Shown here: piece after piece, positions 48,675 to 57,789 of the stretch
Layout of the letters: every line of letters starts with the position of its first letter
Position numbering within the stretch: the first letter of the stretch is position 1
Notes under the pieces: model-generated
Told to the model about the DNA's origin: nothing
What the model saw: the letters and a program-made list of their open reading frames with translations, nothing else
The model's database searches: none
DNA from: an uncultured Anaerolineales bacterium
Lineage (GTDB): Bacteria; Chloroflexota; Anaerolineae; Aggregatilineales; Aggregatilineaceae
Direction of reading: 5' to 3'
Length of the DNA: 64,000 nucleotides
Assembly (NCBI GenBank): GCA_937135955.1
Contig: CAKZOB010000029.1
Coordinates: 1 to 64,000 of the forward strand
Translations under genes and position numbers: made by a program

Positions 48675-50153
48675 ATGAACCTCGCCGAAAACGAGGCGCC
48701 GATCACCATCGTGATCTTCGGCGCATCGGGCGACCTGACCGAGCGCAAGTTGATTCCGGCGCTGTTCAGTCTCTACCGTCGTCAACGCCTGCCGCAGCCG
48801 CTGCAGATCGTAGGATCGGCGCGCCGACCCTACACGCACGAGGAATTCCGCGCTCATCTGCGTACAGGCGCGCAGCAATATGCGACCGAGCGCTTCGATG
48901 CGGCGACCTGGGACGCCTTTTCGGCCAACATCTGGTATCACGCCGGAGATTCCAGCCGCCCCGAAGACATGACCGCGCTGGACGCTTTTCTCACCCGTCT
49001 GGAGAAGGGTTCGGCCCATCGCCTGTATTACCTGGCCGTCGCGCCGACGCTCTATGTGCCCATTGTGGAGAACCTGGGCCGCGCCGATATGGCGCACGAA
49101 GACGACGGCTGGCGGAGGCTGATCGTCGAAAAACCTTTCGGGCACGATCTGGCTTCGGCCCATGCTCTCAACGATACGCTGCATCAGGTATTCGCTGAGC
49201 ATCAGGTCTACCGGATCGATCACTACCTGGGCAAGGAAACGGCGCAGAACATCCTCTTCTTCCGCTTCGCTAACACCATCTTCGAGCCGGTGTGGAACCG
49301 CAATTACGTGGATCACGTGCAGATCACGGTCGCTGAGACGGTAGATGTGGGGCATCGCGCTGGCTACTACGATCAGGCGGGCGTGCTGCGCGACATGTTC
49401 CAGAATCACCTGTTGCAACTGCTGGCGCTGATCGCCATGGAACCGCCCTATTCCTTCGATGCTGATGCCCTGCGCAACGAGAAGGTGAAGGTGCTCAATT
49501 CCATTCGACCCATCGGCCCGCACGACGCCGTCCTCGCCCAATATCGCGGTTACCGCGAGGCGCAGGGCGTCGCCCCTGCTTCGCGCACCCCGACCTTCGC
49601 CGCGCTCAAGCTGTATGTGGACAACTGGCGCTGGCAGGGCGTGCCCTTCTATCTGCGCTCCGGCAAGGCGCTGGCGCACAAGACCAGCGAAGTGGTCGTG
49701 GAATTCAAGTGCCCGCCCCAGGTGATGTTCGAGCGGGAGACGAACGAGTGCTTTCCCCCGAACGTGCTCTCGCTGTGTATTCAGCCGGATGAAGGCATTC
49801 ACCTGCAGTTCGAGGCTAAAGTCCCTGGTTCACAGCGCGACACCCGCTCGGTCAACATGGAATTCCACTATCGCTTGTCGTTTGGAGGGGGGCCGCTGCC
49901 CGATGCCTACGAGCGCCTGTTGCTCGATGCGCTGCTCGGCGACGCCTCACTCTTCACGCGCAGCGACGAGATCGAAGCCGCCTGGCGGATTATTGACCCG
50001 TTGTTGAAGCGCTGGGAAACCGGGCAAGACCCCCATATCCCCGTCTACGAACCGGGCACCATGGGGCCGCCAGAAAGCGATGAGTTCATGGCCCGCGATG
50101 GGCGTCTCTGGCGGCAGGAATGCAATCATTGCGAAGAGAAAACTACTGAATGA
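48675..50153 (+). CDS. zwf: Glucose-6-phosphate 1-dehydrogenase
   Basis: Zwf oxidises glucose-6-phosphate to 6-phosphogluconolactone, the entry of the pentose phosphate path, and supplies NADPH. The 492-residue product has the nucleotide motif [18 protein letters not shown] at residues 12-29, and the active-site segment [13 protein letters not shown] with the catalytic His and Lys near 180. Length is normal. GATAGGAG stands before the ATG. It overlaps pgl by 4 bp, so steps one and two of the pathway are made together. Confidence 0.96.
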
Positions 50154-50887
50154 ACGAGATCGAAGTCTGCCCCGATCCCCAGCATCTGGCGCGGGTCGCC
50201 GCCGGGCATATCGCCCGTATTGCCGCTGAAGTTATCGCCGTGCGCGGACGCTTCACCATCGGCCTGCCGGGCGGATCGACACCGCGCCTGCTGTTCACAT
50301 TGCTGAGCAATCTACCCTGGGTCAGGCGCATTGATTGGGCGCATGTACACGTCTTCTGGGGCGATGAGCGCTGCGTGCCGCCCGATCATCCGGACAGCAA
50401 CTATCGGCTGGCGTACGAAACGCTGCTGCACCATGTGCCTGTGCCCACCGAACAGATACATCGCATCTCCGGCGAGCTGCCCCCCGCCGAAGCCGCCCGT
50501 TCCTACGAACAGACTTTGCGCGCCTTCTTCCCGGAGGACGCCTCTGCTAATCCACAGCCGCGCTTCGATCTGCTGCTGCTGGGTCTGGGCGACGACGGGC
50601 ACACGGCATCTCTGTTCCCTGGCACGCTGGCTTTGACGGAGACGACGCGCTGGGTCGTGGAAAACTACGTGCCGCGCCTGGACGCCTGGCGTATCACGCT
50701 CACCGCGCCGGCGATCAATGCCGCTGCCCATGTGATTTTCCTGGTCAGCGGGGCGGCTAAAGCCGAGGCGCTGCAGGCGGTGTTGCGAGGGCCATTCCGT
50801 CCGTCGGCCTATCCCGCACAATTGATTCAGCCTCGTGCCGGGCAATTGCTCTGGCTGGTGGATCAGGCGGCGGCGGCTCTCTTATGA
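50150..50887 (+). CDS. pgl: 6-phosphogluconolactonase (DevB type)
   Basis: Pgl opens the lactone made by Zwf. The 245-residue product shows [32 protein letters not shown] and [16 protein letters not shown], all signatures of the NagB/Pgl fold. It starts within the zwf stop (ATGA overlap), which strongly supports the call and coupled synthesis. Confidence 0.95.
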
Positions 50888-50944: not shown

Positions 50945-50981
50945 ACACACGCAGCTTTCTGTAGAGTGAGGAGAAAAGCGC

Positions 50982-52517
50982 ATGGTACGTAAAGTCAGTC
51001 TGTTCGCGCTGATCCTGGTCGCCATGCTGGCCGTGTCGTTTCTGCCAGCGTCAGCTGCCGGGCCGGTGTACCCCGATCTGCCCGACCTGGGCGGACAGGA
51101 GATCGTGATCGCCGTCGAAAACCTCTACACGCCGTTCCAGTTCGAGAATCCCAAGACCGGCGAGATCATGGGGTATGAGTACGACCTGGTGGAAGAAATC
51201 TGCTACCGCATTAACTGCACGCCGGTCTATGAGTACGTCAGTTGGGATGTGATGATCTCCTCGGTCAGCGAAGGTCAGTTCGACATGGGCATGACCGGCA
51301 TCAGCATCATTGAAGAGCGCAAGCAGATGGTGGACTTCTCCGACCCCTACATCAATCTGCAGCAGTTCTTGCTGGCCCGTGCCGACGAAGACCGTTTCAG
51401 CAACATCGAGGAGTTTGCCGCCAACCCCGACCTGCTCCTGGGGGTGCAGGCGGGCACTGCTGGTTTCTTCGTCACCCTCGACTTCGTTCCCGACGAAGCC
51501 CGCCGCGTTGTTTACACGGAGTTTGGCGCGCTGGTGCAGGCGCTCATTGTTGGTGATGTGGATGCCATCCCTGTAGACGCTGCTGCTGCCCGCGGCTTCA
51601 TCTCCACCACTGGCGGGGCGGTCAAGACGGTTGGCGACGCCATCTCCGACGACGAGATGGGCTTCATCTTCCCCAAAGGCTCCGACCTGGTCGAACCGAT
51701 GAACGCTGCCATCGCTTCCCTCAAACAGGATGGCTTCCTCGATTTCCTGATGAATAAGTGGTTCTTCGACTACAACCCAGAGACAGGCGAGCTGTATGAT
51801 GAATTGCCCGACCTGGGCGGACAGGAGATCGTGATCGCCGTCGAAAACCTCTACACGCCGTTCCAGTTCGAGAATCCCAAGACCGGCGAGATCATGGGGT
51901 ATGAGTACGACCTGGTGGAAGAAATCTGCTACCGCATTAACTGCACGCCGGTCTATGAGTACGTCAGTTGGGATGTGATGATCTCCTCGGTCAGCGAAGG
52001 TCAGTTCGACATGGGCATGACCGGCATCAGCATCATTGAAGAGCGCAAGCAGATGGTGGACTTCTCCGACCCCTACATCAATCTGCAGCAGTTCTTGCTG
52101 GCCCGTGCCGACGAAGACCGTTTCAGCAACATCGAGGAGTTTGCCGCCAACCCCGACCTGCTCCTGGGGGTGCAGGCGGGCACTGCTGGTTTCTTCGTCA
52201 CCCTCGACTTCGTTCCCGACGAAGCCCGCCGCGTTGTTTACACGGAGTTTGGCGCGCTGGTGCAGGCGCTCATTGTTGGTGATGTGGATGCCATCCCTGT
52301 AGACGCTGCTGCTGCCCGCGGCTTCATCTCCACCACTGGCGGGGCGGTCAAGACGGTTGGCGACGCCATCTCCGACGACGAGATGGGCTTCATCTTCCCC
52401 AAAGGCTCCGACCTGGTCGAACCGATGAACGCTGCCATCGCTTCCCTCAAACAGGATGGCTTCCTCGATTTCCTGATGAATAAGTGGTTCTTCGACTATC
52501 AGCCGCCGACCGAATAA
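50982..52517 (+). CDS. Amino-acid-type substrate-binding protein with two identical fused domains
   Basis: A 511-residue exported protein. The signal peptide is about 1-26 (LFALILVAMLAVSFLPASAA). Two bacterial extracellular solute-binding type 3 domains follow, at about 33-263 and 275-505, joined by a short linker (NPETGELYDE). The amino-acid ligand signature is seen in each: MTGISIIEERKQMVDFSDPY. The two domains are identical in protein and, by eye, in DNA: 51079-51772 matches 51805-52498 with no difference I can find. Each domain alone equals a normal binding protein. No ABC permease or ATPase gene is near, so the transporter is elsewhere. The rest is an unusual tandem array. Confidence 0.93.
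   Translation: MVRKVSLFALILVAMLAVSFLPASAAGPVYPDLPDLGGQEIVIAVENLYTPFQFENPKTGEIMGYEYDLVEEICYRINCTPVYEYVSWDVMISSVSEGQFDMGMTGISIIEERKQMVDFSDPYINLQQFLLARADEDRFSNIEEFAANPDLLLGVQAGTAGFFVTLDFVPDEARRVVYTEFGALVQALIVGDVDAIPVDAAAARGFISTTGGAVKTVGDAISDDEMGFIFPKGSDLVEPMNAAIASLKQDGFLDFLMNKWFFDYNPETGELYDELPDLGGQEIVIAVENLYTPFQFENPKTGEIMGYEYDLVEEICYRINCTPVYEYVSWDVMISSVSEGQFDMGMTGISIIEERKQMVDFSDPYINLQQFLLARADEDRFSNIEEFAANPDLLLGVQAGTAGFFVTLDFVPDEARRVVYTEFGALVQALIVGDVDAIPVDAAAARGFISTTGGAVKTVGDAISDDEMGFIFPKGSDLVEPMNAAIASLKQDGFLDFLMNKWFFDYQPPTE
51079..51772 (+). repeat. Direct repeat unit 1 in binding protein gene
   Basis: First copy of a 694-bp perfect direct repeat, offset 726 bp (242 codons) from the second. The repeat keeps the reading frame. 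The first base before it differs (C against T), and the base after it differs (C against T). Confidence 0.95.
51805..52498 (+). repeat. Direct repeat unit 2 in binding protein gene
   Basis: Second copy of the 694-bp repeat. The 32-bp spacer between the copies encodes the linker. Confidence 0.95.
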
Positions 52518-52785: not shown

Positions 52786-53118
52786 ATGAACATCAGCGAA
52801 CGCAAACACGACGGGGTGATCGTCTTTGTGCTGGATGGGCGCATAGATAGCGAAGGCGCACAATCCCTGGAGGAGACGTTGCAGCGCTGCTTCGAAGCGG
52901 GCGATTATCGCCTGATCCTCGACCTGGCTGGGGTGCCCTATATCAATAGCGTTGCGCTGCGCACGTTGGCCGAAGCCACTCTCACCTGCCGCGCGCAAGG
53001 AGGGGATGTCAAACTGGTCGCGTTGCAACCCAAAGTCCGGCGCGTGCTGCAGATCGTGGGCTTCGACCGTTACTCGGCCATCTACGACACCCAGGAAGCG
53101 GCGCTGGCCGCCTTCTGA
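52786..53118 (+). CDS. STAS-domain anti-sigma factor antagonist
   Basis: A 110-residue single STAS domain like SpoIIAA/RsbV. The core has GVIVFVLDGRIDSEGAQSLEE and LDLAGVPYINSVALRTLAEA; the serine in INSVALR occupies the usual phosphorylation site. Such proteins, when not phosphorylated, bind a switch kinase and release a sigma factor. No RsbW-type kinase is next to it, so the partner is unknown. A PP2C phosphatase lies at 17486-18679. Confidence 0.9.
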   Translation: MNISERKHDGVIVFVLDGRIDSEGAQSLEETLQRCFEAGDYRLILDLAGVPYINSVALRTLAEATLTCRAQGGDVKLVALQPKVRRVLQIVGFDRYSAIYDTQEAALAAF

Positions 53119-53250: not shown

Positions 53251-53327
53251 GCAATTGCGGCGAAATGCTGCTGGAACACGTTAAGATTCCGGGGCGGAAT
53301 GCGCTGTATCTGGGGAGAATGGTCACC

Positions 53328-54005
53328 ATGAAGAAAATCCTGTTGGTTGAGGATGACGATACGCTGCGCAAGACGTTGGCGTATAACCTCACTCAGGAAG
53401 GGTACAAAGTTCTGCAAACAGGTGACGGCGCTGAGGCGTTGACGCTGGCCCGCGAACATTCGCCCGATCTGATTGTGCTGGATGTCATGCTGCCCTCGCT
53501 GGATGGGCTGTCTGTCTGCCGCATCATCCGTAACGAGTCCGAAGTGCCCATCATCATGCTCACGGCGCGCGGCAGCGAAGTTGATCGCATCGTGGGGCTA
53601 GAGATCGGCGCGGACGACTACATCGTCAAGCCGTTCAGTCTGGGCGAGTTTCTGGCCCGTGTGCGGGCGATACTGCGCCGCTCCCCGTCGTCGCGCGGCG
53701 TGGTAGATAAGCTCGAAAGCGGCGACCTGGTGCTGGACTTGATCGCCCGCCGTGCTACGCGCGACAACAAGGAACTGCGCCTGACGCACAAGGAGTTCGA
53801 CCTGCTGGCGACGCTCATGCGCAATCAGGGGGCGGTGCTCTCGCGCGACCTGCTGCTCGACCGTGTGTGGGGCTACGACTACGGCGGGCAGACCAAGACA
53901 GTGGATGTACACGTGCGCTGGCTGCGCGAGAAGATCGAGGACGATCCTTCCCACCCGCGCCGCATCGTCACCGTGCGCGGGGTCGGTTACCGGTTCGAAG
54001 GGTGA
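53328..54005 (+). CDS. OmpR/PhoB-family response regulator
   Basis: A 225-residue two-domain regulator. The receiver (1-120) has the acidic triplet in VEDDDTL, phospho-acceptor aspartate in LIVLDVMLP and KPF. The winged-helix DNA-binding domain (about 130-225) ends with TVRGVGYRFEG. ATG 53328 lies 10 nt after GGGGAGA; ATG 53319 is too close to it. The histidine kinase gene follows after 3 bp. Phosphate control is likely by family resemblance only. Confidence 0.92.
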   Translation: MKKILLVEDDDTLRKTLAYNLTQEGYKVLQTGDGAEALTLAREHSPDLIVLDVMLPSLDGLSVCRIIRNESEVPIIMLTARGSEVDRIVGLEIGADDYIVKPFSLGEFLARVRAILRRSPSSRGVVDKLESGDLVLDLIARRATRDNKELRLTHKEFDLLATLMRNQGAVLSRDLLLDRVWGYDYGGQTKTVDVHVRWLREKIEDDPSHPRRIVTVRGVGYRFEG

Positions 54006-54008
54006 GCG

Positions 54009-55187
54009 ATGTTGCCCTGGCTGATCGCTTTGCTGGTAGTAGTAGTGGCAGGCGTCCTGTGGGTTTCTCTGCGGCGCACGCGGCGTGAACTGCAAATCTG
54101 TAGCGATCGGCTGACGCACCTGGAACAGTCGCACGCCCACCATTCAGATCGCGGTCGCGCCCTGCAAAACGCGCTGATGAAGAGCGTGGAAGACAGCCTG
54201 CTCATTCTGGACAGCGATCTGACCATCGTTGAGGCCAATCCTTCAGCGCAACGGCTGCTGGGCGCAGAACTGAGCGGCAAGACTCTGCTGGAAGCCACGC
54301 GCCAGCCGGACTTGGAGGCTCTGGTCTTCGACGCCCGGCGGGTGGGCAACGAAATCGTCGAGCGCCGTATTGAGTTCGAAGAGCACCGCATTTTGCACGC
54401 TCGCGCCCTGGCGCTCCCCCCGACAGCCGGAGAAATGGCGATCGTCACACTGCGCGATGTGACTCAGTTGCAGCGCCTGGAACGCGCCCGCCGCGAGATG
54501 GTCTCCAACATCACGCACGAACTGAGCACACCCATCACCTCGATTGGGCTGCTGGCCGACACGCTGCTAACCTTCGCCGAGCGCGAAAAACCCAAGCGCA
54601 TCCGCAAGATGGCCAAGGACATCCGGCGCGAGACCGACACGCTGATGCAACTGGTCCAGGAGATGCGCGATCTGTCGCTGATTGAATCCGGACAGATGCC
54701 CATCCGCCTGACTCCCACCCCGGTGCGCCCTATCATCACCCGCACGCTGGAACAACTGGAGTCGCTGGCCGAAAACAAAGAACAGACCATCGAGGTACAT
54801 GCCCCCGACGATCTGAGTGTGTTGGCCGACGAATTGCAGATTCAGCGCGCGCTGAAGAACATCGTGCACAACGCCATCAAGTTCACTCAGCAGGGCGGGC
54901 ACATCCGCATCAATGCCGAGCGCAACGGCGCGGAGGCGGTGATCGCTGTCGCCGATAACGGGCCGGGCATCCCTGCCGAAGACCTGCCGCGCGTGTTCGA
55001 GCGCTTCTTTCAGGTAGACCCGGCGCGGCGCGATGGCACGGGCCTGGGCCTGGCCATTGTGCGGCACATCGTGCGGGCGCATGGCGGGCGTACCTGGGCC
55101 GAGAGCGCGCAGGGCCAGGGCGCGACCTTCTACATCGCGCTCCCCCTGGCCGATATCGCCCTCAACGACACCGAAGTCCCCGACTGA
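54009..55187 (+). CDS. PhoR-like sensor histidine kinase
   Basis: A 392-residue kinase. One N-terminal membrane segment (2-22, LPWLIALLVVVVAGVLWV) is followed by a coiled coil, a PAS domain (about 60-150), HisKA with the histidine in MVSNITHELSTPITS, and HATPase_c with NIVHNAIKFTQQGG, DNGPGIPAED and GTGLGLAIV. There is no large external sensor, as in PhoR. It lies 3 bp after the response regulator gene, forming the usual pair. Confidence 0.92.
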   Translation: MLPWLIALLVVVVAGVLWVSLRRTRRELQICSDRLTHLEQSHAHHSDRGRALQNALMKSVEDSLLILDSDLTIVEANPSAQRLLGAELSGKTLLEATRQPDLEALVFDARRVGNEIVERRIEFEEHRILHARALALPPTAGEMAIVTLRDVTQLQRLERARREMVSNITHELSTPITSIGLLADTLLTFAEREKPKRIRKMAKDIRRETDTLMQLVQEMRDLSLIESGQMPIRLTPTPVRPIITRTLEQLESLAENKEQTIEVHAPDDLSVLADELQIQRALKNIVHNAIKFTQQGGHIRINAERNGAEAVIAVADNGPGIPAEDLPRVFERFFQVDPARRDGTGLGLAIVRHIVRAHGGRTWAESAQGQGATFYIALPLADIALNDTEVPD

Positions 55188-55199
55188 TCGGCCCGATTC

Positions 55200-57677
55200 T
55201 CACAGCCAGGGCAAGGTTTCGCGCGGCATGGCCGCCCGCGTCGTCGTGGGCACTTCTGCCACCAGCGCCGACCGTCCCAACGCCCCTTCCCAGCCCACCA
55301 GACCGTACCCTTTAGCATAGTAGTAACGCTCGAACGGCGTCGCTTTGGGTTTTCCGCCGTCGTCCTCATAGGCAGCCAGCACAGCCACGTCGGACACGGT
55401 GAAGCCGCTCGACAGAGTGAGCGAGCGGTGCACTGCCTCCAGAACAACCCAGGTGACGTGCACGAACTTCTTGCCGGGGACTTCGGCCCCGTCGCTCTTG
55501 CGGCGCAAGATCACCAACGGCGTGCGCTGGAACGGCACCCCAACCGTCATGCGGCGTGGCACCCAGGGACTGCCGTAGCGCCCGTTTTCGGTCAGGGTGT
55601 ACACTTCGCCCCCGCCCGCCGACGTATCCGTCCCGCGGTAGATGAAGTGCTCGTCCGCCCACAGCTCTTCCCATTCTCCGTGCTTGACGTGATAGAAGCG
55701 GTCGCCTTCGACCTGCGTCTGTACGCGCTGCCGCCCGCCCCCGTCCCAGTCGAAAGCCAGTTCATAGGTGCGCCCATCCCCGCGCAGGAATTCGAGCATA
55801 TCGTAGGTCTGTTGTGGGTCTGTTACCTCGATCAGCGCGAACTGATCGTAATCGAAGAAACGTCCCTGCGGATCGCGCCCTTTCCAGGTGCTTTTGTGCA
55901 GGCCGGGCGTGCGCGGTGCGGTCAGTAGCAGCGACACCTCTACTATCTCGCCGGGCTGCGCCGGTGGCAGAGGCACGGCGTCTGGCCCGTCCATCTTGTT
56001 GTCGCCGAAGAAAGCCAGCGTATAGCCCGTATCCCATGGAGTCGTGCCTGTGTTGCGCACCCGCCACGTCTTGACGAACGCCTCACCCGGCTGCACGGTC
56101 GTGCCGTCCGGAATGGTGACATCGGCCACATAGCTGAGTTCGTTGAACTGAGCCGATGGTTCAGCCGGACTGGGAACCTGGATCAGCGCGTACAGATCGA
56201 ATTCGAAGAACTCTCCGCGCGGGTTACGCGGCTTCCACGTGCTGCGGTGCAGGCCTGGCGTCTGCGGCGCGGTGAGCGTCACCGAGACCTCGACCACGTC
56301 ACCGGGCTGTGCGGGAGGCAGGGGCACGCTGGATGGGCCGCCCATCTGGTCATCGCCAAAGAAAGCCAGCTCATAGCTCGCTCCCCAGGCTGTCTCGCCC
56401 GAATTGCGCACCCGCCATGTTTTGACGAACGTCCGTCCGGCCTCCATCACGCTTTCGTCGGGCACGGTCACGTCGGCCACGAAGCGCAACTCGTCCAGGC
56501 GGGCCGTAGGGGAGATGACACGCGGCACCTGGATTTCAGCATACTGTTCGTAGTCGAAAACCTTGCCCGCCGCATTGGCCAACTTCCACGTGCTGCGATG
56601 ACGCCCTGGCTGGGCGGGCGCGCGCAGCGTCACCGATAGTTCCACCACTTCGCCGGGCTTCACCGCTCGCGGTAGGGGCACGCTGTCCGGCGCGCCCATC
56701 TGGTCACCGGAGACAAAACGCAGGCTGTATCCGGTCGTCCAGGTTGTGTTGCCGGTGTTGCGCACGCGCCAGGTCTTGACGAACGTCTCGCCCGGTTGCA
56801 CCACCAGCCCGTCGGGGATGGTCACGTCGGCCACGAAGGACGCCTCGTCGCGCGCGACGACCGGCTTGACCACGATGTTGGTGAACAGCGGATTGGGAAA
56901 AAGACGCCCGTCCGGCCCCCGCAACTGCCAGACGCTGCGATGAGTGCCCGGCTGCGCTGGCGCAGTGAGACGCACGCTCAGGTCTACTACCTGTCCCGGC
57001 TGCACCGGCACAATGGGCAGCGCGACTTCGTCTGGCCCCTCCATGCGCTCGTCTCCCGCAAAGACCAGTTTGGTGCGCGCGTCCCAGGCAGTTGTGCCGG
57101 TGTTGCGCACGCGCCAGGTTTTGATCAGGCGCTGTCCTGGCTCAACCTTCATCCCATCGGGCACGGTCACGTCCACCACAAAAGAGGCTTCGCTGAATTC
57201 CGGCACCGGCCCCAATCGGAAGAACGGCTCCGGGTCAACGACATCGTCCACTGTGTACCCCTGCAGACCATGCCCAATGTGCTGCAAAGTCAGGTGCAGG
57301 TGAATGCCCGACGAGAAGCCGGTCGTGCCCGCCACGCCGAGCTTCTGACCGGCCCGCACGAACTGCCCCTGCCGCACGCTGATAGTGGACATGTGCCCAT
57401 ACCAGGTCACGTACGTCTGATCGCCCCAGGCGTGCACGATGCGCACGTAGTGCCCATAGCCCTGGCCAGTAAACGCCACCCGATCGACGATCCCGCGCTG
57501 AGCCGCCAGCACTGCCACCGGGTGCCCTTGCGCGTCAATGGCCATCAGGTCAATGCCTTCGTGCAATTGCTTCTTGTCCGGCGCAAAGGCATATTGACGC
57601 GGCGCGTTGAAGCGATCGGTGATCACCAGGCTGCGGGCAACAGGGTTGACGAGGAAGAAGGGCGGTAGGGAGGACAT
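55200..57677 (-). CDS. M23 peptidase domain with four NBR1-like Ig repeats
   Basis: An 825-residue protein. Residues 20-165 form an M23-type (LytM) metallopeptidase: H39 and D43 in HEGID, and a second zinc site in IHLHL. Four tandem NBR1-type Ig domains of about 110 residues follow (about 172-625), each opening with a conserved FVADVTIPDG and KTWRVRNTG pattern. The C-terminal 200 residues (WDGGGRQRVQ and on) form an unknown beta-rich domain. M23 enzymes cut peptidoglycan cross-links. Curiously I see no signal peptide from ATG 57677, which has AAGGAGC before it. Confidence 0.88.
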   Translation of the reverse strand: MSSLPPFFLVNPVARSLVITDRFNAPRQYAFAPDKKQLHEGIDLMAIDAQGHPVAVLAAQRGIVDRVAFTGQGYGHYVRIVHAWGDQTYVTWYGHMSTISVRQGQFVRAGQKLGVAGTTGFSSGIHLHLTLQHIGHGLQGYTVDDVVDPEPFFRLGPVPEFSEASFVVDVTVPDGMKVEPGQRLIKTWRVRNTGTTAWDARTKLVFAGDERMEGPDEVALPIVPVQPGQVVDLSVRLTAPAQPGTHRSVWQLRGPDGRLFPNPLFTNIVVKPVVARDEASFVADVTIPDGLVVQPGETFVKTWRVRNTGNTTWTTGYSLRFVSGDQMGAPDSVPLPRAVKPGEVVELSVTLRAPAQPGRHRSTWKLANAAGKVFDYEQYAEIQVPRVISPTARLDELRFVADVTVPDESVMEAGRTFVKTWRVRNSGETAWGASYELAFFGDDQMGGPSSVPLPPAQPGDVVEVSVTLTAPQTPGLHRSTWKPRNPRGEFFEFDLYALIQVPSPAEPSAQFNELSYVADVTIPDGTTVQPGEAFVKTWRVRNTGTTPWDTGYTLAFFGDNKMDGPDAVPLPPAQPGEIVEVSLLLTAPRTPGLHKSTWKGRDPQGRFFDYDQFALIEVTDPQQTYDMLEFLRGDGRTYELAFDWDGGGRQRVQTQVEGDRFYHVKHGEWEELWADEHFIYRGTDTSAGGGEVYTLTENGRYGSPWVPRRMTVGVPFQRTPLVILRRKSDGAEVPGKKFVHVTWVVLEAVHRSLTLSSGFTVSDVAVLAAYEDDGGKPKATPFERYYYAKGYGLVGWEGALGRSALVAEVPTTTRAAMPRETLPWL

Positions 57678-57789
57678 GGCACGGCTCCTTGAAAACATGC
57701 CCCAGAGTCAGGGGATTCCCGACTCTCTTATGCTAAATACTAGTTGTAGTCTTTTGGGAAGACAAGAGGACACCTGGCTTATCGCCCAG

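Follow-up and report, generated by a model that had tools for sequence, protein, structure and literature searches.

Identical solute-binding domains within one transporter gene of a Chloroflexota bacterium: an old tandem whose halves probably evolve in concert

In GlnPQ of Lactococcus lactis, a short linker of 14 aa connects two SBP_bac_3-type domains; the length of this linker affects the transport rate, and ligand binding is unaffected by the neighboring domain (PMC8025302, PDB 6h30). One transporter is likewise served by two identical SBDs in OpuA of L. lactis, where a homodimer of fused chains supplies them rather than a tandem within one gene (PMC11065425). It is not settled what importers gain from having two binding domains on each chain, and the cases studied are those of different specificities. 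Tandem domains that are nearly identical at the DNA level are found in Periscope and other surface proteins; they have been attributed to homologous recombination, and such high-identity repeats are hard to assemble from short reads (PMC8201768, PMC9704523). Long-lasting concerted evolution, with paralogues closer within species than orthologues between species, has been described for tuf and amoCAB in a paper whose main text does not contain the word "transporter" (PMC6053082). Each of three phenomena is already known: tandem SBDs, high-identity surface repeats, and duplicated genes that evolve in concert over long times. Our literature search, which fell short of many journals, found no earlier report of a transporter gene in which two copies of a complete ligand-binding domain stay identical throughout a class.

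The stretch of DNA analyzed here (64 kb, referred to as the window) belongs to an assembly of 4.28 Mb in 93 contigs (G000). Its ORF listing contains a 511-aa ORF with an ATG start on the positive strand, which is shown below together with its parts and neighbors.

48675-50153, + strand: zwf-like gene (glucose-6-phosphate dehydrogenase, named by sequence recognition), an upstream neighbor conserved by synteny in G003, G001, and G009
50150-50887, + strand: pgl-like gene (6-phosphogluconolactonase, named by sequence recognition), an upstream neighbor conserved by synteny
50966-50973 (approximate position), + strand: Shine-Dalgarno-like stretch GTGAGGAG, read from the sequence, ~10 bp 5' of the ATG
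50982-52517, + strand: gene for a two-domain secreted solute-binding protein (511 aa), from the ORF, two Pfam SBP_bac_3 matches, and a syntenic orthologue in G003
50982-51059, + strand: putative signal peptide of 26 aa ending in ASAA, without a lipobox Cys, from the sequence and a lipobox census
51079-51772, + strand: repeat copy 1, binding domain 1, from LPDLGG to KWFFDY, defined by the exact 694-bp identity; ligand residues Gly/Ser/Arg/Asp present
51773-51804, + strand: interdomain linker NPETGELYDEL, outside the repeat and homologous in family members by linker comparison
51805-52498, + strand: repeat copy 2, binding domain 2, defined by the exact 694-bp identity
52499-52517, + strand: divergent C-terminal tail, QPPTE-stop, from the sequence and repeat comparison
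52786-53118, + strand: STAS-type anti-sigma-factor-antagonist-like gene, a downstream neighbor conserved by synteny in G003, G004, and G008
53265-55187, + strand: response regulator and histidine kinase, downstream neighbors conserved by synteny

Direct comparison of the two copies gave zero mismatches over 694 bp at an offset of 726 bp, or 242 codons, exactly as the first-pass annotation had claimed. Only 32 bp separate the copies, and their outer flanks are diverged. Because the match is exact over 694 bp, the repeat is not a product of chance. The 64-kb window contained no other direct repeat with a common 30-mer, and the block occurred in no third place in the 4.28-Mb assembly.

Each copy encodes a complete solute-binding domain of the amino acid type. 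Pfam family PF00497 (SBP_bac_3) matched two stretches of the protein with 208.9 bits against a cut-off of 26.4 (2.5e-62 for the whole protein), and the N-terminus, MVRKVSLFALILVAMLAVSFLPASAA, is signal-peptide-like and lacks a lipobox cysteine, in line with the earlier description of two identical binding domains behind one signal peptide. By a simple motif scan, neither the window gene nor its relatives in the family have a lipobox; the same motif was present in 40 of 82 two-domain entries, about half, some of the entries being repeat fetches of one gene. Neither a stalk nor a cell-wall anchor was seen in the window protein by ORF and Pfam analysis.

The protein shares with GlnPQ two SBP_bac_3-type domains and a short linker (~11 aa), and it would likewise work with a polar-amino-acid ABC permease. 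In GlnPQ, the two domains belong to the same chain as the membrane domain and have different sequences and specificities; those of the window protein are identical and lie in a separate, secreted chain. The ORF stops no more than ~7 residues past domain 2, with no fused transmembrane domain of the GlnP type. The near-identity of its DNA recalls the Periscope-type repeats, but these are mostly rod-like adhesin stalks of variable repeat number, whereas here two complete ligand-binding domains of a transporter are involved and their number is mostly two. Whereas tuf and amoCAB are separate whole genes, the copies in the window are halves of one gene.

The closest solved structures, by sequence match, were the tandem domains of GlnPQ and amino-acid-binding proteins, and these matches settled the fold. 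In the SBP_bac_3-type fold, the amino acid backbone is bound by Gly, Ser/Thr, Arg, and Asp. Throughout the class, both domains retain these positions: the putative ligand Arg was present in 68 of 68 sequences of both domain sets, and the Asp in 67 of 68 and 68 of 68. We take the two residues to be Arg75 and Asp157 of GlnBP, which hold the carboxylate and the ammonium, respectively. The ligand is expected to be an amino acid, and the protein is likely the extracellular binding component of an ABC importer for polar amino acids.

A polar-amino-acid permease lies directly behind the gene in most relatives; no permease adjoins the gene in the window. Elsewhere in the genome (contig C20, position 42981; L194/L196), there is an orphan polar-amino-acid permease with no binding-protein gene beside it. 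It shares 76% identity with the permease adjoining the family orthologue in G012 and 68% with the one in G011, and is the best match of these permeases in the genome. The window protein would serve this permease, which is probably its partner after a split of the operon. The first-pass annotation had suggested a concatenated scavenger, which fits only loosely: the operons of relatives speak for an importer binding protein rather than a free scavenger, although the window gene lacks both a lipobox and a permease beside it.

The gene occupies a conserved place. The order zwf, pgl, tandem binding-protein gene, STAS gene, response regulator, kinase, and M23 peptidase (neighbors named by sequence recognition) is kept in G003, a member of the same genus, where the syntenic orthologue is 88% identical; its downstream half is kept in G004 and G008, and its upstream half in G001 and G009. 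The M23-type peptidase of the window (55200-57698, negative strand) itself carries four tandem domains of ~110 aa, which are 61 to 71% identical in DNA and not homogenized.

Matching domains were found in 60 of 60 relatives searched. Strong matches, mostly across the full two-domain length, occurred in 60 of the 396 genomes of the class (Chloroflexota, Anaerolineae-type). Seventy-one genes were read with at least two domains, including one three-domain gene (in G188); 3 of the 71 belong to a paralogous lipoprotein family. The domain number is mostly two, and one- and three-domain forms occur between species, as a check proposed at the outset had envisaged: single-domain forms are present in the family and order in G011 (on a 2.9-Mb contig), G004, G038, and G043. 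In the three-domain gene (L170, contig C253), the DNA of domain 1 matches that of domain 2 at 92.6% identity, and domain 3 is ~76% identical to both.

The linkers of family members are of one kind (NPETGELY in two, NPQSGEIY, VPATGELY, and SPETGELY), and two further relatives of the order have NSASGALY and NPVTDELY. Because the linker, which lies outside the repeat, is homologous and the place of the gene is conserved, the tandem is older than the diversification of the family. On this comparison of linkers and gene order, we conclude that it is at least as old as the family, and it is probably much older. The very recent duplication proposed earlier is contradicted by the synteny, the linker homology, and the class-wide occurrence of two-domain genes; a one-off recent duplication was likewise ruled out by the two-domain genes of relatives and their linkers.

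Within one gene, the two domains usually resemble each other more closely than either resembles its counterpart in the nearest genome. The DNA identity between domains within a gene was 99.7% in the window, 95.8% in G006, 94.4% in G003, 82% in G008, and 73% in G009. Synonymous divergence between domains 1 and 2 of the window gene was 0.026 overall and 0 inside the 694 bp, as opposed to 0.65 to 0.68 between the window gene and that of G003. Across the class, the within-gene dS was lower than the nearest between-genome dS in 47 of 70 genes, and the two domains of a gene were sisters in the tree in 50 of 70, in 46 of them with support of at least 0.9. Site patterns between G000 and G003 comprised 85 concerted sites (copies agreeing within and differing between species), 3 old-paralogy sites, and 0 control sites. 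A tree uniting first domains with first and second with second was rejected by the AU test (p 3e-36 for the family set and 1e-53 for G000 and G003 alone). A tree with sister domains in every gene was marginally rejected (p 0.0497), apparently owing to the old, unhomogenized domains of G009.

Identity is distributed unevenly along the diverged copies. The G003 gene contains an identical run of 358 bp amid 44 differences, and the G006 gene a run of 546 bp (permutation p 0.001), a patchiness that conversion tracts would give. In many species pairs, old domain differences common to both species (xyxy sites) stand alongside concerted sites. Homogenization is not universal, since some close groups (such as L019/L162/L165 and L015/L017) show the ordinary divergence of old paralogues between their domains. 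Where the pattern holds, the copies are closer to each other within than between species and the duplication is older than the split. We conclude from these comparisons of sequences that the gene has undergone long-running intragenic concerted evolution, by gene conversion or unequal crossing-over. Of the active gene conversion first proposed, the recombination between halves that restores identity is borne out by the site patterns, AU tests, dS values, and mosaics; gene conversion and unequal crossing-over via a three-copy intermediate fit alike. As to the donor, the window shares its base with domain 1 of G003 at 25 of 40 informative sites and with domain 2 at 10, and other comparisons were balanced; this skew is only suggestive of a direction, from domain 1 to domain 2 or the reverse.

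Could the identity have arisen during assembly, by doubling of a single domain or by smoothing of merely similar copies, as the first-pass annotation also allowed? An exact 694-bp repeat is hard to span in short-read graphs, and the assembly is in 93 contigs. The two-domain form, however, assembles unambiguously in the family where the domains are strongly diverged (73% in G009), and near-identity recurs in single-contig genomes (99.1% in G369, 95.7% in G344, and 94.7% in G089). Assemblies break inside the gene in 9 of 17 family relatives, where contig numbers would predict 2.2 (P 3e-5). The two broken ends share an overlap of exactly 127 bp in G001 and 87 bp in G012, the de Bruijn graph signature of a true repeat. 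The window gene also preserves flank differences at both copies and a distinct linker. We therefore regard an artefact as very unlikely, and the single-contig genomes contradict it for both the two-domain form and the near-identity; in the window contig, a few differences between the copies may have been lost to smoothing during assembly. Assemblies from short reads routinely split or collapse this gene.

A biological alternative is that a single-domain gene was recently and independently duplicated in each lineage, without gene conversion. The single-domain forms in the family and order would supply the starting point, new duplications would give the same by-gene clustering of most domains in the tree, and only 3 sites in the domains directly keep an old domain difference between G000 and G003, which counts against recombination between old halves. 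Still, all family members have linkers of one length and one sequence pattern, even though the linker lies outside the repeat, and this alternative would call for some 50 separate duplication events, each with a matching linker. The graded within-gene identity of syntenic orthologues (99.7, 94.4, 82, and 73%), the mosaic patches within diverged copies, and the xyxy sites next to concerted ones also speak against this explanation, which we consider improbable as a whole; re-duplication in some lineages is possible, gene by gene. Less plausible still, to the point of being nearly negligible, is that the likeness of the domains is due solely to purifying or parallel selection at the protein level. 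The domain pairs are indeed constrained (median dN/dS of 0.12 between domains, 42 pairs), but all third positions inside the block of the window gene are identical, which is beyond the reach of selection at the protein level. Selection probably acts in addition to recombination. In L166 and L167 (G308 and G413), the domains are 98.7 to 99.6% identical in protein although dS is 0.45 to 0.75; this near-identity of protein over diverged synonymous sites is what selection alone would give, and it points to strong purifying selection on the two domains and no recent homogenization of their DNA.

We thus hold with considerable confidence that the gene encodes an importer binding protein with two SBP_bac_3 domains, formed by an ancient tandem whose halves are overwritten by recombination and evolve in concert, the latest event covering 694 bp. 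Long direct repeats 32 bp apart would recombine frequently, presumably by a RecA-type process, through gene conversion inside a single chromosome or through unequal crossing-over of sister chromosomes. One half would repeatedly overwrite the other, so that the two domains evolve in concert; in this genome, the latest event or events would have spanned the whole 694-bp domain too recently for any mutation to follow. Loss of one copy should be common under such recombination, and one-domain forms are seen (G011, G004). Because two copies nevertheless persist widely, the two-domain form appears to be favored, and selection against the single-domain form may preserve the tandem. Two equal domains might raise the local supply of loaded domains and the rate of capture and delivery at the permease. 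More tentatively, and with doubt outweighing confidence, the identity itself may be selected: a class-wide transporter family would need two equal domains on each chain, and recurrent conversion would copy an adaptive change in one to the other. Domains kept identical for so long offer a natural experiment on whether two specificities or two copies are the benefit, and the gene is one of the rare bacterial cases in which intragenic concerted evolution can be measured in a globular functional domain.

The same genome contains a second tandem binding-protein gene (L176, contig C7, 8626-10692), which encodes a lipoprotein with a Thr/Pro-rich stalk. Its domains are 99.7% identical over ~681 bp at an offset of 726, and those of its G003 orthologue 99.8%; site patterns between G000 and G003 comprised 111 concerted, 0 old-paralogy, and 0 control sites. 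The domains of a third tandem binding-protein gene (contig C65) are just 25% identical in protein. General homogenization of all tandem domains in the genome was ruled out by this gene and by the M23 peptidase (61 to 71% in DNA). The permease that follows orthologues of the C7 paralogue has its closest match in the window genome on contig C33, and relatives of the C33 permease lie directly behind the paralogous tandem gene in G003 and G009. This permease (L197, 273-2264) is a 662-aa amino acid permease whose main membrane part is preceded by several hundred additional residues, and it is followed by a GlnQ-type ATPase.
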